Positions 2,244 through 26,431 of a stretch of 64,000 nucleotides of DNA are shown one piece after another. Position 1 is the stretch's first letter. Each line of letters begins with the position of its first letter. The stretch is from Methanosarcina mazei S-6 (GTDB lineage: Archaea > Halobacteriota > Methanosarcinia > Methanosarcinales > Methanosarcinaceae), in contig NZ_CP009512.1 in assembly GCF_000970205.1 (NCBI RefSeq), positions 2,542,001 through 2,606,000 of the forward strand, written 5' to 3'. Below the pieces are notes generated by a model, which saw only the letters and a list, made by a program, of their open reading frames with translations, did no database searches and had not been told where the DNA came from. The position numbers and the translations under genes were made by a program.

Positions 2244-5234
2244 TTGAGTAACCAGCCCGGTATACACGATAAGACTTTCAGTCAGGAATCTGATGATAGG
2301 ATAAAAGCTGCAAAGCAACTGGGAGCCCTTTTTGAGGTTTTTCCGGACAGAAAACAGGCATTTGAAGACCTTTTAAGGCTCTGTTCCGACAGGGACAGCG
2401 AGGTAAGGGTAGAGGCCATTAATTCTCTTACAACTGTTTTTCCAAATGTGCCGGAAAAAGAACTTACCTGGGAGAGGTTTGTAAACCTTACAGCTTATCC
2501 CGTTGAACAGGTCTTTGCAGCGGCAGTTAGCGCCCTGATAACTGTTTTTCCCCTGGTGCCGGATAAAGACAGGGCATGGAAAGACCTTATTGAGCTGATA
2601 AATTCAAAATCAAGCATCGAAGACGTCAGCAGGGGGATCGTCAGCTCTCTTCAAAATGCTATTTCTGAATATCCTGACAGAGAACATGCGTGGAAGGATT
2701 TGCTGGAAATGACAGCATCAGAAGACCCTTATGCCCGAAAAAAGGCTGCTTCTTTATTAAGCACTGTTTTTCCGGGGCTGCCTGAAGGGAAAAAAACTAA
2801 AGCATGGAAAGACCTGCTTGGGCTGGCAGGAGAAAAAGGGGACTCACAGGTAAGTGAACAGGCTTCAAAGGCTATCCGGGAGGTTTTCCCATTTTTGCCT
2901 GATGAAAAGAAAGACGAAGGCTGGGAAGAGATGCTCGAGCTGGCAGGGGGGTCAGCAGATCATGTTGCCCGGATGAAAATTCTGCCCTTTCTGCCTTCGG
3001 TCTTTTCTTCCGTCCCGGATAAGAATAAGGCATGGGACACAATTTTCAGGTTCACAGGTGATGAAAGAGAAACTGTGCGAAAGCAGGCTATGGATGCTCT
3101 TGTTTCTATTTCTACTGAGATGTCAGATAAAAGCAGGGTCTGGTCTGACTTCATTAAGCTTACAGAAGCACAGGATGAGTATGTAAGGGATAGGGCTGTG
3201 GATGCCCTTTCCAGTGTGTACCAGTGCCTTGAAAATAAAGACGCTGCCTGGAAAGAACTGATAGAGCTTACCGGAAGCGAGGAAGAAAATATCCGGACAA
3301 CAGCTGCCCGTGCCCTGAACAGGATATTCCCTTATGTTTCCGACAAGAGCCAGGCATACTCGGACATTATAGACCTGGCTGAAAAGGAAGATAATTATAT
3401 GCTCAGGGAGGTCGCAAGGAACCTTTCTTCTATCCACCCCCAATTTTATGGTGAATACGGAACAGATGAAATGAGAGCGGAAATTGGGGAAATAAATGAG
3501 AGTGGAAGACAGAATGGGAAGAAAGAAGATAAATTTTCAGGTTTTTCCGGGCCAGCATCCGAAAAAGCTGCCTTTCTGAGGAGGGACACGGCTACTTTTC
3601 GGGGATCTGCTCCGGGTCAGCATGATATGGGGAAGAATAGAGAAATAGCAGAGGGAAGAGAAATGAGGGATGAAGATAAGGCCGAAAATGGGCAGCTTAA
3701 AGGAAAAGAAAGCAAGAAATCTGCCTATGATTTTCTGAGACTTAAAGGGGAGAGAGAAAAGTACGCAAGAAAAGATTCAGCAGGACCTTTTTCAGAAACT
3801 TATTCAGGGATTCCGGAGAAAAAGGAAATTATCGAGGAGCTGCTCAGGCTCAGTTCGGACCCTGATCCCCAGATAAGGAGAGGTGCGATTGAAACACTGC
3901 TTGTTCGTTATTCGAGGGAAGCAGGCAAAGCACAGGATATCTGGAACGAACTCCTCAGGATATCTGAAGATGAGGATACAGGCGTAAGAAAGGATGCTGC
4001 AGAGCTGTTATCTCATGTCTTTCCAGCGGTTGAAGAAAAGTCAGGAGTATTTTTTGACATTATCAGGCTTGTTGAAAGCCGGGACACCCAGCTCAGAAGG
4101 AGGGCTGCAGAGCTGCTTCCTGCTGCATTTGCCCATTCGGGTAATAAACAGAGGGCATGGAACGACCTTGTAAAGCTTACATCGGATGAAGACAGGGAGG
4201 TCAGGAAAGGGGCGGTACTTGCCCTTTCATCGGGATATCCCGGGGTTCCGGATAAAGGAAAAGTCTGGAGTGACCTTATCATGCTTTCGTCTCACAATGA
4301 CAGTTTTGTGCAGCGTGAAGCCACCCGGGCTCTTGGTCCTGCTTTTTTTTATGTGCCTGACAAAACAATGGCATGGAGAGACCTGCAGGTTCTTGTTGAT
4401 AACCCTTATGTCTATGTCCGGAGGTATGCACTCCGTTCTCTCGGCAGGGCTTCCCTCTGGAGAGCAATGAAAGCGGAAAACGAAGCTGCTTATCTTTTCG
4501 GGCTTAAAGAGGCAGTTAAATACTTTAAAGAGGCGTCTGAAGCCTCTGTAGGCACTGCAATTCCCGAATTTTACCACCCCTTTTATGAATCTCTTTTGCA
4601 GATCTTTTTCGCTGAAAGGTCTTCTGCACTCGAAAGTGAACGGTATCTCTCAGCTGTGACAGGTGAGACAGGCTATCTGGCAGAAAACCGAAAACTTCAA
4701 GGGGTTCTGGAAGAATTTGCAGGGCTCCTTCGGACAGCGGGAGACCTGGCTCCTGGAGACCTTTCTGCCAGGAAAGAATTTCTTGAAAACAGCACAGGGG
4801 CTTTTGATAGGGCTTCGTCGATATTCGATGCTGTGGAAGAAGATGCAATTTTATCGAAAAAAGTCGTGAAAAAAGAGCGTCAAAAATTCGGAAAGGTAGT
4901 CCAGGAACAGAAACTGAAAGAGACTCTTTCTGGGATCAGATATAGAGCAAAGACTGCCTGCCTTAAGTCAAAAGGCACGCCTGCGGAAAAAATCACCTGT
5001 AGCATAAGTCAAAGGGTTAGAACGTGGAATTTCCAGGACTCTGAGAGAGATAAGAATGAGCTGAGCAGGCAGCTTGAATCTTTTCTTAATGTGCTTGAAG
5101 CACAGGTACCCTATGTCCCTGAGAACAGGAATATTTTTGAAAAACTTGAAGATATCAGGCAGGAACAGGACCTTCTTGAGCGTTGCAGAAAAGTTAGCAG
5201 GTTAATAAGCCTTATCCCGGGAGCCAGGGTCTGA
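2244..5234 (+). CDS. Large HEAT-repeat protein
   Basis: A 996-residue soluble protein built of HEAT-like helical repeats of about 37 residues, each with a recurrent pattern of Asp-Lys, Ala-Trp, Asp-Leu, then a charged loop and VR..A...L. Residues 1-405 and about 525-735 are repeats. Residues about 408-520 form a charged, low-complexity linker rich in Lys, Glu, Gly and Arg. The last 260 residues are helical and charged without the repeat. No catalytic motif is visible, so a scaffold or protein-binding role is inferred. It resembles PBS-lyase/HEAT proteins, but no lyase partner gene is nearby. The start is TTG, supported by GGTGGG a few bases upstream; no ATG is available near the beginning of the repeats. 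Confidence 0.8.
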   Translation: MSNQPGIHDKTFSQESDDRIKAAKQLGALFEVFPDRKQAFEDLLRLCSDRDSEVRVEAINSLTTVFPNVPEKELTWERFVNLTAYPVEQVFAAAVSALITVFPLVPDKDRAWKDLIELINSKSSIEDVSRGIVSSLQNAISEYPDREHAWKDLLEMTASEDPYARKKAASLLSTVFPGLPEGKKTKAWKDLLGLAGEKGDSQVSEQASKAIREVFPFLPDEKKDEGWEEMLELAGGSADHVARMKILPFLPSVFSSVPDKNKAWDTIFRFTGDERETVRKQAMDALVSISTEMSDKSRVWSDFIKLTEAQDEYVRDRAVDALSSVYQCLENKDAAWKELIELTGSEEENIRTTAARALNRIFPYVSDKSQAYSDIIDLAEKEDNYMLREVARNLSSIHPQFYGEYGTDEMRAEIGEINESGRQNGKKEDKFSGFSGPASEKAAFLRRDTATFRGSAPGQHDMGKNREIAEGREMRDEDKAENGQLKGKESKKSAYDFLRLKGEREKYARKDSAGPFSETYSGIPEKKEIIEELLRLSSDPDPQIRRGAIETLLVRYSREAGKAQDIWNELLRISEDEDTGVRKDAAELLSHVFPAVEEKSGVFFDIIRLVESRDTQLRRRAAELLPAAFAHSGNKQRAWNDLVKLTSDEDREVRKGAVLALSSGYPGVPDKGKVWSDLIMLSSHNDSFVQREATRALGPAFFYVPDKTMAWRDLQVLVDNPYVYVRRYALRSLGRASLWRAMKAENEAAYLFGLKEAVKYFKEASEASVGTAIPEFYHPFYESLLQIFFAERSSALESERYLSAVTGETGYLAENRKLQGVLEEFAGLLRTAGDLAPGDLSARKEFLENSTGAFDRASSIFDAVEEDAILSKKVVKKERQKFGKVVQEQKLKETLSGIRYRAKTACLKSKGTPAEKITCSISQRVRTWNFQDSERDKNELSRQLESFLNVLEAQVPYVPENRNIFEKLEDIRQEQDLLERCRKVSRLISLIPGARV

Positions 5235-5963: not shown

Positions 5964-6081
5964 TGAAATATTTCCTTAAAATATTTTTTCCCGAATTTCT
6001 CTTTTCTCCAGTTCATCTCTTTTTGCTGAATTTTTCCTAATTTTCCCAATTTTCCCATTTATTCCAATTCATCCAATTTTT

Positions 6082-6207
6082 CCTAATTTTCTCATTTATC
6101 CTAATTTTCTCATTTATCCTAATTTTCTCATTTATCCCAATTTTCTCATTTATCCCAATTTTCTTATTTATCCTAATTTTCTTATTTATCCTAATTTTCT
6201 TATTTAT
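6082..6207 (+). repeat. Seven tandem copies of an 18-bp T-rich unit
   Basis: The unit CCTAATTTTCTCATTTAT and one- or two-base variants repeat seven times without spacers. Degenerate copies extend left to about 5990. The array sits in the 448-bp gap between the DUF4177-like gene and the permease gene. The T-rich strand is the sense strand of the upstream gene, so it may act in termination, but it has no hairpin. Confidence 0.9.
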
Positions 6208-6362
6208 CCCAATTTCACCAGATTTCCCTGCTCTCTCCCTTTTCCTAAGTTCTTCCGTTTACCAGGCGTAGAAATAATATGTAGAAATAAGTTTACCAGG
6301 TGTGGAAATAACATGTAAAATAAATTTATTAGTTGTAGAAATAATATGTAGAAATAAGTTCT

Positions 6363-7766: not shown

Positions 7767-7970
7767 AAAAAAGGTTGCGTTCCCATCTAGATTCTGGAAG
7801 TTCCGAATTTTTATAAGAGATGCTTTGTTTTTGGGAAGAGGTTTGAGGTACTTGACTCATAGGCTGTGAGTTTGTATTATCTCTTTACTTGTGGGTAGTT
7901 TTTCGGAGTGGATGTTGAAATAGGTCTTTTGGAATAGATTTTAAGTAGGTGTTTAGATGAGAACACAACA
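7767..7970 (-). ncRNA. Structured RNA gene, copy 1 (unrecognised family)
   Basis: On the minus strand the ends pair completely: 7955-7969 with 7774-7788, fifteen pairs including two G-U wobbles. The same pairing on the plus strand would have two C-A mismatches, so the minus strand is the RNA. An inner stem of seven pairs joins 7879-7885 and 7815-7821 and encloses a 21-nt block (7830-7850) identical in copy 2. A 15-nt block (7793-7807) is also identical. The RNA starts about 26 bp after a TATA box and ends in six U (7767-7772). No open frame is shared with copy 2. The length is about 204 nt. Confidence 0.75.
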
Positions 7971-7990
7971 AACTATACTACACACTTACT

Positions 7991-8004
7991 GTATATAATA
8001 TTTT
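7991..8004 (-). promoter_or_regulatory. TATA box for RNA copy 1
   Basis: Read on the minus strand this is AAAATATTATATAC. Its centre is about 26 bp upstream of the predicted RNA 5' end at 7969-7970. The same element precedes copy 2 at the same spacing. Confidence 0.6.
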
Positions 8005-8259
8005 CAACAAATAATATCATTTTACCTGCATATTCATTAGTTCATACATATAACATTTTATCACTAATATAACCTTATATTATCAGATAAATCGTGCTCG
8101 GTTTCCTTTCACAAGAAGTAATCAGTAGAAATATATTTATTTGTATTTTTAAAAAACAATATATACTACCTGATGCATTTCTTCTATAAGATATCACGAC
8201 GAAAATAAGTTTTACTCAGTATTGTTCTGAAACGTTCTGAAACCTGAGGAGGAAGAGGC

Positions 8260-8694
8260 ATAAAAAAAGATACTATCATTTTGATACTGACTATTGGTAT
8301 ACTGATAACAGCAAACTCGGTCAGTGCCGCACCGCAGGGGACTGTAATAAAAGAAGGTGTACTGACATATCCTGCAGGACCCTATCTTTCAGGAGACCCT
8401 CTCCTGTTAAGCCTCGGAAATTATACAGGGGATAACGATACAGAAGGATCAGGAGAACAATTTAAAATAGCCTATCTGGAAAATGAACACCTGTTTTTTG
8501 AGAACAGCAGCCAGAGTTCGGCTTCCGAAAGCCTGACCGTTTGTGAGTTGGGTGTTTGCCCTCACAGATTTTTTGACACCCGACTCAAATTCAACAAAGA
8601 AACGCTTCATACTGGATTCAGATTTATTTTTTACCCTGTTTCTCTTTCTATAAACAGGATGTCTTTGTCCATTATATTCAACACTGCTTTTTAA
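8260..8694 (+). pseudogene. Decayed exported-protein gene, start codon ATA
   Basis: A strong ribosome binding site (GAGGAGG, 8246-8252) is followed at normal spacing by ATA AAA AAA GAT, reading xKKDTIILILTIGILITAN and then SVSAAPQG, a typical signal peptide with cleavage after Ala. Homologous surface proteins, as I remember them, start with ATG-Lys-Lys-Asp at this point. The first 50 or so residues (through YPAGPYLSGDP) look like that family. After that the frame runs on as unrelated, Ser-rich sequence to a stop at 8694. Most likely a start mutation and a truncation have killed the gene. Initiation at ATA or at the TTG at 8281 cannot be excluded. Confidence 0.5.
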
Positions 8695-8801
8695 TACCTG
8701 CATGTTTGTTTGTGAACTGGCACCGGGCTGAAGACTTTGTCCCGGTGAGCAGAATACCCATCATAACCGGTTTTATTTAGTCGAATATGCCGAACAGGCT
8801 T

Positions 8802-8849
8802 AATGATTAAATTTTACAATGATTAAATTTTACAATGATTAAATTTTAC
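8802..8849. repeat. Three tandem copies of a 16-bp unit
   Basis: AATGATTAAATTTTAC is repeated three times exactly, 35 bp beyond the 3' end of RNA copy 2. Nothing else is seen in 8695-8884. Confidence 0.9.
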
Positions 8850-8884
8850 TGAAAAAGATCAGAGACCTGATTGATTAAAATTTT

Positions 8885-9046
8885 AAAAAAAAGGTTGCGT
8901 TCCCATCCGGAATATCTGGAAGTTCCGAACATAGTAAGAGATTTTTAGTTTGGGAAGAGGTTTGAGGTATTTGTGGGTTAGAGTTTTAGTTCATCTCTTT
9001 GTGGAGTAGGTGTTTGCTAGTGGGGTGTTCAGAGATGAGAACGCAA
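8885..9046 (-). ncRNA. Structured RNA gene, copy 2 (unrecognised family)
   Basis: Homologous to the RNA at 7767-7970 but about 40 nt shorter. On the minus strand 9034-9046 pairs with 8895-8907, thirteen pairs with one G-U wobble. An inner seven-pair stem joins 8993-8999 and 8936-8942 around a 50-nt loop carrying the identical 21-nt block at 8949-8969. The identical 15-nt block is at 8915-8929. The predicted 5' end lies about 26 bp from a TATA box, and the RNA ends in eight U (8885-8892). The segments between the stems differ between copies, so selection seems to act on ends, stems and the two blocks. Confidence 0.75.
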
Positions 9047-9064
9047 TTTATACTATACATCCAT

Positions 9065-9076
9065 CATATATAATAT
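9065..9076 (-). promoter_or_regulatory. TATA box for RNA copy 2
   Basis: ATATTATATATG on the minus strand, centred about 26 bp before the predicted RNA start at 9046 and matching the element before copy 1. Confidence 0.6.
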
Positions 9077-9242
9077 TTTTAATACATAATATTATACAGA
9101 CACTCTACATCTTAGCTTATCTCTCTAATTTTAGTTGATTAGTATAATAATATACCATTAAACTAAAAAGTTACATTTATAACAAACATCTTTATTCAAA
9201 CTTCGGGATCAATTTCTTGAGAAGCTGGATCAATTTTCAGAG

Positions 9243-24997: not shown

Positions 24998-26431
24998 TCA
25001 GAGTATAGTTAACGGCGCTCCTATGAGCGCCGCACGAATACCCTCTAAAACAGGTAAACCGTTCTTTTTTCCTGTAGAAATGTACGCCCTAATTCTGCAG
25101 AAAGCTTGCGCTCCCATTGCTTTTCTGAAAGTTCCCGATATTTTCTGCTGTAGTTTCATCATCCTGATATCTCTTTCTGCCTGATTATTATCAAATGGAA
25201 CTTTCAAATCTGTCAGGAATCTCAGAATCTTTTCTTTGTGTTCTATAAACCTATCCAGCAGATTCCTTGATTTTGTTTTTGGATTTTTACCGCGTTTTCC
25301 CTGTTTTTCAGGATTTAGAGAATGCGGATTTTCTTCAAGCGCTCTAATGATAATTGCATCAAACCTTTCTTCCAATGCTTTAATTTGCTCAAAATCAGGT
25401 TCTCTTAATTGCTCTTTACACTCATCAGTGTATTTCTTCATCTCAGTGAGCAGTTCATTCATCTCTTTAGCCCATGTCTGTTTATAGTTCTCTTCAATTC
25501 CTGTAAGTTCTCTCTGTAAATGAGCGTTACACAGAGCATGATCACAATCATAAACGTTGTAAGGTTTCCATCCATCATGAACTGCTACTCCCTTAAACTT
25601 CGGAAGAATTCCCATAGCATCTATTGCTTCTGCTCCTCTTTTTGTATGAGCAAAATAACATGTGTATTTTTCATTAGAAGCTACATGAAGCCAGTGTCTT
25701 TTTCCTTCAATCTTCATACCAGTTTCATCAAAATTGATTACAGGCGAGGCTAATAACTTCTCTCTAATAACGTTTTCAAATTCCTCTAAATTCTGGAAAC
25801 ATTCTCTTTCTGCTCTAATTATCGTAGCAGGACAGATTTTTATTCCCATAATGTCTTCAAATAACTCAGAAATTCTATCATAAGGAACAAACTGGTAATT
25901 TTTACAGTAAATAGCTGAAGCTAAAATATTAGGGCCATACTGAACCGGATATTTCACTGATTCGGGAAAAACGGCTTTATTCAACTTTCCACAACAAGGA
26001 CAGGTTTTAATCTGACTTTTATGTTCTGTAACAATTAGATTTACGGGAGGAATGTCAAAGACCTGTCTTCTCTCATAAGCTTCAACTTCAACATTCTCAA
26101 GGGTAGATCCGCATTCTTTGCAGCAGGTCAAAGAATGTTCTATTACCTACTCAGGATGATCAACCATATCAAGAGTCGTGCCTGGATGACCTTCCTGACC
26201 TCCAGGTTTCTTCCCGCTTGGTTTACGCAGACTCTTGGGATTAGGTTTCTCTTTGACAAAATAATCAGTAGAAGGAGGTCGACTGCTGTTACGACTGTTT
26301 TGATTTAAACGAGATTCTAAGGCTACAAGTCTTTCAGTGAGTTCTTTAACTTGAGATTCTAAACTCTCAATGTAAGCTACAATAATTTCAGGATTTGAAG
26401 CACAGTAAGAAAGAATCTCATCACGTTTCAT
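24998..26431 (-). CDS. IS66 transposase with in-frame UAG codon
   Basis: The frame encodes 94 residues, one UAG (26149-26147), and then, in the same frame, five more codons plus 377 residues, together about 477 residues, the normal IS66 transposase length. Visible parts in order: an N-terminal coiled coil and the SRPPSTD segment, the UAG, a zinc-finger region (CCKECG and CPCCG), the catalytic core with NFDETGMK (first Asp), HDGWKPY (second Asp) and NNQAERDIRMMKL (Glu), and a short C-terminal tail ending on the inverted repeat. The UAG may be read as pyrrolysine, or it may be an amber mutation of a Gln or Glu codon. Nothing else in the frame is broken. Confidence 0.85.

Follow-up and report, generated by a model that had tools for sequence, protein, structure and literature searches.

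A probable family of multicopy small non-coding RNAs in Methanosarcina

Introduction

What is encoded by two closely similar units on the minus strand of a Methanosarcina chromosome, neither of which looks like a protein gene? Methanosarcina is a main genetic model of methanogens, and to our knowledge a role has been assigned to no more than a handful of its small RNAs. A first-pass annotation of the DNA analysed here (the window, a stretch of 64,000 nucleotides of the Methanosarcina mazei S-6 chromosome) had proposed that both units encode members of a new small RNA family, perhaps antisense, in which a conserved 21-nt block binds the targets. Here, we ask whether these units belong to an RNA family, how far that family extends, and what it might do.

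Results

Two minus-strand units in the window

Both units are real, and chance is far from explaining them, given the five copies in this genome, the 146 in 35 genomes and the covariation described below. Their TATA boxes, inner stems, identical blocks and U-runs were re-read in the sequence, and the features are as follows.

8895..9046, minus strand: RNA unit A, TTGCG...CGCAA, 152 nt (covariance model match 137.5 bits; sequence read directly)
9067..9073, minus strand: unit A TATA box TTATATA, 20 nt before the RNA start, with a BRE-like AAAAATA directly upstream
9034..9046, minus strand: unit A closing stem P1, 5' strand
8895..8907, minus strand: unit A closing stem P1, 3' strand
9000..9030, minus strand: unit A 5' C/A-rich loop with one CCUACUCC module (1-4 modules in orthologues)
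8992..8999, minus strand: unit A inner stem P2, 5' strand AAGAGAUG
8935..8943, minus strand: unit A inner stem P2, 3' strand AAUCUCUUA
8949..8969, minus strand: unit A conserved 21-nt block TACCTCAAACCTCTTCCCAAA, identical in unit B
8915..8929, minus strand: unit A conserved 15-nt block TTCGGAACTTCCAGA
8885..8894, minus strand: unit A end CCTTTTTTTT, with a U-run of 8 at 8885-8892
7775..7968, minus strand: RNA unit B, 194 nt (covariance model match 143.6 bits; sequence read directly)
7992..7998, minus strand: unit B TATA box TTATATA, 23 nt before the RNA start
7956..7968, minus strand: unit B closing stem P1, 5' strand
7775..7787, minus strand: unit B closing stem P1, 3' strand
7888..7952, minus strand: unit B 5' C/A-rich loop with about four degenerate CCUAYUCC-like modules
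7878..7886, minus strand: unit B inner stem P2, 5' strand
7814..7822, minus strand: unit B inner stem P2, 3' strand
7855..7871, minus strand: unit B hairpin P3, ACUCA..UGAGU
7830..7850, minus strand: unit B conserved 21-nt block, identical to that of unit A
7793..7807, minus strand: unit B conserved 15-nt block TTCGGAACTTCCAGA
7767..7774, minus strand: unit B end CCTTTTTT, with a U-run of 6 at 7767-7772

The inner stem has the same 7 bp (AAGAGAU/AUCUCUU) in both units, and the CTCTTCC core of the 21-nt block is near-invariant in class A1. The closing stem is completely paired, as the first-pass annotation had described, and the U-G versus C-G difference between the copies lies at its pair 4; the pair counts, however, are 14 in unit A and 15-16 in unit B rather than 13 and 15.

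A closing stem selected as RNA

The closing stem P1, of 13 bp, is kept across the homologues rather than broken without compensation. Among 52 distinct versions it pairs in 95% of cells, as opposed to only 33-49% in slid controls, with double changes in 5 of the 13 pairs and a covariation score (0.191) that none of 500 shuffles matched. Not only the pairing of P1 but also its sequence is conserved, and because it is so conserved the number of independent covariation events is modest. The strand specificity described for the two units extends to the family as a whole, in that the stems of 138 copies contain 158 G-U versus 15 C-A cells, with no C-A at all in pairs 4-11; this excess argues for selection on the minus-strand RNA and not on a DNA inverted repeat.

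Inside P1, the inner stem P2 recurs as AAGAGAU/AUCUCUU or, in other classes, as AAAAGAU/AUCUUUU and AAGGGAU/AUCUCUU, and a hairpin P3 (ACUCRC..GUGAGU) recurs across copies. Evidence for these two predicted helices is weaker; cognate and non-cognate P2 strands differ little in pairing energy (-7.55 vs -7.30 kcal/mol), which places P2 below P1. The remainder of the interior is C/A-rich and poor in G (3-15%).

Promoter, end, and coding potential

The promoters and U-run ends claimed for the two units proved to be a family-wide trait. A TATA box stands exactly 20 nt before TTGCG in 128 of 140 full copies, within the promoter consensus TTAAAAATAtTATATA...TAGTATAA, and a U-rich end lies behind most of the 140. 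Further upstream, the DNA is conserved class by class (that of unit A, for instance, shares an AACTAA/TTAGTT motif), and from this pattern we infer that expression of the family is probably regulated. Upstream of unit A itself (window 9130-9167, minus strand) lies a TTTAGTT...AACTAAA inverted repeat, a possible operator; orthologues of that class retain its AACTAA half together with the AT-rich motif around it. An NrpR-controlled nitrogen sRNA, like sRNA154, was considered and rejected, as only 2 of the 146 copies are preceded by an NrpR-like operator. A coding RNA was likewise ruled out: no reading frame is conserved, and the longest ATG frame of a copy is on average 10.8 aa long, versus 18.6 aa in shuffles, which identifies the RNA as non-coding.

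Size and distribution of the family

A covariance model built from 45 copies was searched in 112 Methanosarcinaceae genomes, as had been proposed for these units, and detected 146 copies in 35 of them. The carriers are all 31 Methanosarcina genomes, with 1 to 8 copies each, and four genomes of one sister genus; the model found no copies in the twelve other Methanosarcinaceae genera represented among the 112 genomes, and 120 genomes sampled across the order yielded no additional host genus. When a collection of 84,980 species genomes was scanned with a pattern for the exact ends, all matches fell in Methanosarcina records, apart from two contigs that belong to a single euryarchaeal MAG. The source genome, a 4.14-Mb Methanosarcina chromosome, contains five copies, so that the original count of two was correct for the window and too low for the genome; of the other three, a tandem pair has its starts at genome positions 2637865 and 2638361, and the last copy begins at 3776956. 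Copies range from 152 to 231 nt in length and their loops are strongly divergent.

At family gathering scores, Rfam 15 gave no match at units A and B or at 13 further loci (97 kb), in agreement with the earlier view that the units belong to no known Rfam family. Elsewhere in the window, Rfam does match PYLIS_5, the pyrrolysine insertion sequence of a transposase (26050-26149, minus strand; 129 bits). No description of the RNA as a family was found in the literature searched. The family is previously uncatalogued, and is set apart from sRNA162/171 by their published description.

Genomic loci

Copies cluster by locus, not by genome, and mostly occupy conserved syntenic loci. Units A and B make up locus I, with a vWA-domain gene on one side and an AI-2E-family transporter gene on the other; locus II has one to three tandem copies adjoining an FAD-dependent oxidoreductase gene; and locus III, which the sister genus has as well, is flanked by a radical-SAM gene and a CobW-type/winged-helix cluster. 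Tandem copies on the same strand are frequent, and each of the 35 pairs and triples keeps to one strand. The grouping by locus and the one-strand clusters together indicate vertical descent with local duplication, not transposition.

In the sister genus (L098 and L101, ~3501-5083), two or three copies are arrayed in tandem at a locus of their own, and small ORF clusters (15 and 30) recur between them. Just before the AI-2E transporter gene, an ORF of tandem PNFLIY repeats was also observed (window 5980-6315, plus strand; L095:1706-2041), which is probably low-complexity DNA rather than protein.

Loop modules

The loops carry a 12-nt CCUAYUCC module (CCUACUCCAAAA), which is present in 1 to 4 copies among orthologues at one locus, and changes in module number leave the scaffold undisturbed. 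CCUACUCC occurs 64 times versus 0.8 expected and CUCUUCC 103 times versus 1.4, counts to which orthologues contribute non-independently; CCUCC, the core of the 16S anti-SD, is under-represented (8 vs 24 expected). The loop of unit B is the only cluster of at least three modules in 864 kb of the source genome, both strands included. Copies of the sister genus (L030:1346-1549 and relatives) have an extra, class-specific UUCGGACCCCCCAC insert within their 3' part.

Searches for targets

The first-pass annotation had assigned target binding to the 21-nt block, on SD-like GGGAAGAGG sites, and our searches did not establish this role. Complements of the block numbered 41 genome-wide versus 34 for the reversed control, with zero-mismatch matches confined to the RNA genes themselves and no near-perfect complement outside them. 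Nine-nt seeds of the block at an SD followed by ATG gave 12 matches versus 9 in the control, among which L202 alone resembles a real gene start; TGGAGTAGG seeds gave 3 versus 1, and the complement of the UUCGGAACUUCC block gave 846 versus 679 control matches at two mismatches, with nothing specific among them. Target tests used ~1.26 Mb of the genome in stretches, the window among them. Mean loop pairing with 350 gene starts (sampled from 536) equalled that of shuffled loops, and at the same starts the 16S anti-SD control stood out (z = -3.0). The 5' modules showed no preference for gene starts. For the 21-nt block, four starts reached -20 kcal/mol or lower against 0.3 expected from simple shuffles, a tail count that dinucleotide shuffles attained in 7% of cases, and in 25% for a second set of 254 genes. 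An rRNA target of the block was rejected, as there were no repeated genomic matches, and a match in a viral contig (L248) is due to chance in the GC-rich coding DNA of a phage-like contig.

The antisense idea, which has no genome-wide excess of complements behind it and a tail not clearly beyond that of dinucleotide shuffles, still has two candidate mRNAs. One is a gene for a lipoprotein that we take, from direct reading of its sequence, to be chagasin-like, in which AAGAGGUUUGAGG at the SD is perfectly complementary to the block over 13 nt; its two halves, GGAAGAG and UUUGAGG, persist in two orthologues, where the middle has changed. The other is a secreted-protein gene with GGAAGAGGUAUAGAGG at the SD, for which conservation says little because close relatives hardly differ in the region upstream of it.

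Discussion

The covariance model search, the promoter spacing, the strand-specific G-U wobbles, synteny, and the absence from Rfam strongly support the proposal of a new Methanosarcina small RNA family, and on this sequence evidence we regard units A and B, with high confidence, as genes of a genus-specific, multicopy family of non-coding small RNAs. Conserved copies at fixed loci point to a regulator, and the stability of these loci beside unrelated neighbours suggests that it would act in trans.

How the family might act is a more tentative matter. By analogy with known systems we favour, at slightly less than even odds, the reading that these are trans-acting sibling sRNAs that pair with mRNA starts through redundant C-rich modules. 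The 13-bp stem and inner helices would form a stable scaffold that holds the G-poor, C/A-rich stretches open; the redundant modules (CCUAYUCC repeats, ACCUCAAACCUCUUCCC, and UUCGGAACUUCC) would act in trans, most likely by pairing with purine-rich sites where a limited set of mRNAs begin, and so blocking translation; and having siblings would probably let the family respond to different inputs or make its dose response steeper. G-poor loops, repeated modules predicted to be unpaired, the multiple copies, and the two candidate mRNAs speak for pairing, whereas the lack of a genome-wide excess of complements, mean pairing equal to that of shuffles, and the scarcity of CCUCC speak against it.

Precedents from LhrC and sRNA162 slightly favour base-pairing. 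The LhrC sRNAs of Listeria are multicopy and mask SD regions, and LhrC1-5 of Listeria monocytogenes resemble the present family in being sibling copies, G-poor, with redundant CU-rich single-stranded motifs (PMC4132741). Our family has these LhrC-type traits (redundant CU-rich motifs, predicted to be single-stranded, and multiple copies), but LhrC has UCCC motifs and proven targets, whereas the family has a 5'/3' closing stem, archaeal promoters, and candidate targets only; a sequence relation is not expected. Within the same genus, M. mazei sRNA162 masks an RBS, and sRNA162/sRNA171 are, like the family, Methanosarcina sRNAs, of ~190 nt with an unstructured linker (PMC3510493). Identity with them was rejected by comparison with their published description (PMC3510493), which gives a fold of three stem-loops with stable 5' fragments, different neighbours (the ArsR-family gene MM2441, and MM2442), and a gene that is present twice in M. 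mazei and once in each of M. acetivorans and M. barkeri; of the present family, this genome and a 5.75-Mb genome, G075, have five copies apiece.

It is also conceivable, if somewhat doubtful, that some copies were already listed in 2009 as anonymous intergenic sRNAs of M. mazei, sRNA41 being one possibility, in which case only the family relation would be new. sRNA41 masks RBSs too, and a start found in both ACDS operons (GCGGAGGTGTG) ranks in the top 1-6% for pairing with the loops, but most ACDS starts are average in this ranking. About 200 such sRNAs were reported in 2009 (cited in PMC5867862). An earlier listing would be compatible with pairing, with a decoy, or with any other proposed mechanism.

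The main rival to pairing, and somewhat less probable than it, is a protein decoy, that is, an RNA sponge that titrates a single-strand RNA-binding protein through CCUAYUCC-type modules in the way that CsrB/RsmZ do with CsrA, the number of modules and genes setting its capacity. The variable module arrays, which range from one to four at one locus on an intact scaffold, the under-representation of CCUCC, and the lack of preference of the 5' modules for mRNA starts all favour such a decoy, as do the many siblings per genome and the absence of other clusters of at least three modules from the 864 kb. CsrB/RsmZ resemble the family in repeating a short motif, in variable number, within open regions and in having undergone gene duplication, and differ in their GGA motifs and CsrA partner, where the family has CCUAYUCC modules. 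Sibling RNAs have been documented to arise by duplication of csrB (PMC6262261). Against this, no protein partner is linked to the loci and no mRNA regulon with clustered modules is visible in the sampled 864 kb. The fuller version, a CsrB-like multi-site sponge outside bacteria, in which one to eight siblings per Methanosarcina genome would titrate a putative single-strand RNA-binding regulator through variable CCUAYUCC arrays, seems to us rather unlikely.

An improbable reading is that the RNA is a structural or housekeeping component of a genus-specific RNP particle, in which protein or RNA would dock on the invariant sequence of P1 and on the UUCGGAACUUCC block. Such a role would suit the conservation of P1 in both sequence and pairing and the presence of the RNA in 31 of 31 Methanosarcina species, but the divergent loops, the lengths of 152-231 nt, and the one to eight copies are unlike known housekeeping RNAs. 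Y RNAs have a closing stem, a pyrimidine-rich loop, and an oligo-U end, and the family resembles Y RNA/Ro60 RNPs in these features; a Ro/Y RNA was rejected, the TROVE-domain protein being absent from the source genome.

Finally, it is highly implausible that the units are the ends of a mobile element, or MITE-like repeats bounded by terminal inverted repeats of 13 bp, a caveat of the first-pass annotation that we examined through synteny, promoter position, and strand: inverted-repeat ends, several copies per genome, and tandem duplication would suit such elements, but the promoter lies outside the repeat at a fixed distance, orthologous copies cluster by locus at the same sites genus-wide, synteny by locus is conserved between relatives, duplications are local and on the same strand only, and a G-U-rich stem is not what a DNA repeat would prefer.

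Returning to the sibling sRNA family, its presence in all 31 species, with up to eight copies, stable loci, and strong consensus promoters, suggests that it likely regulates something central in Methanosarcina. If it does act as an antisense RNA or as a sponge, the sibling-sRNA strategy known from bacteria would also exist in archaea.
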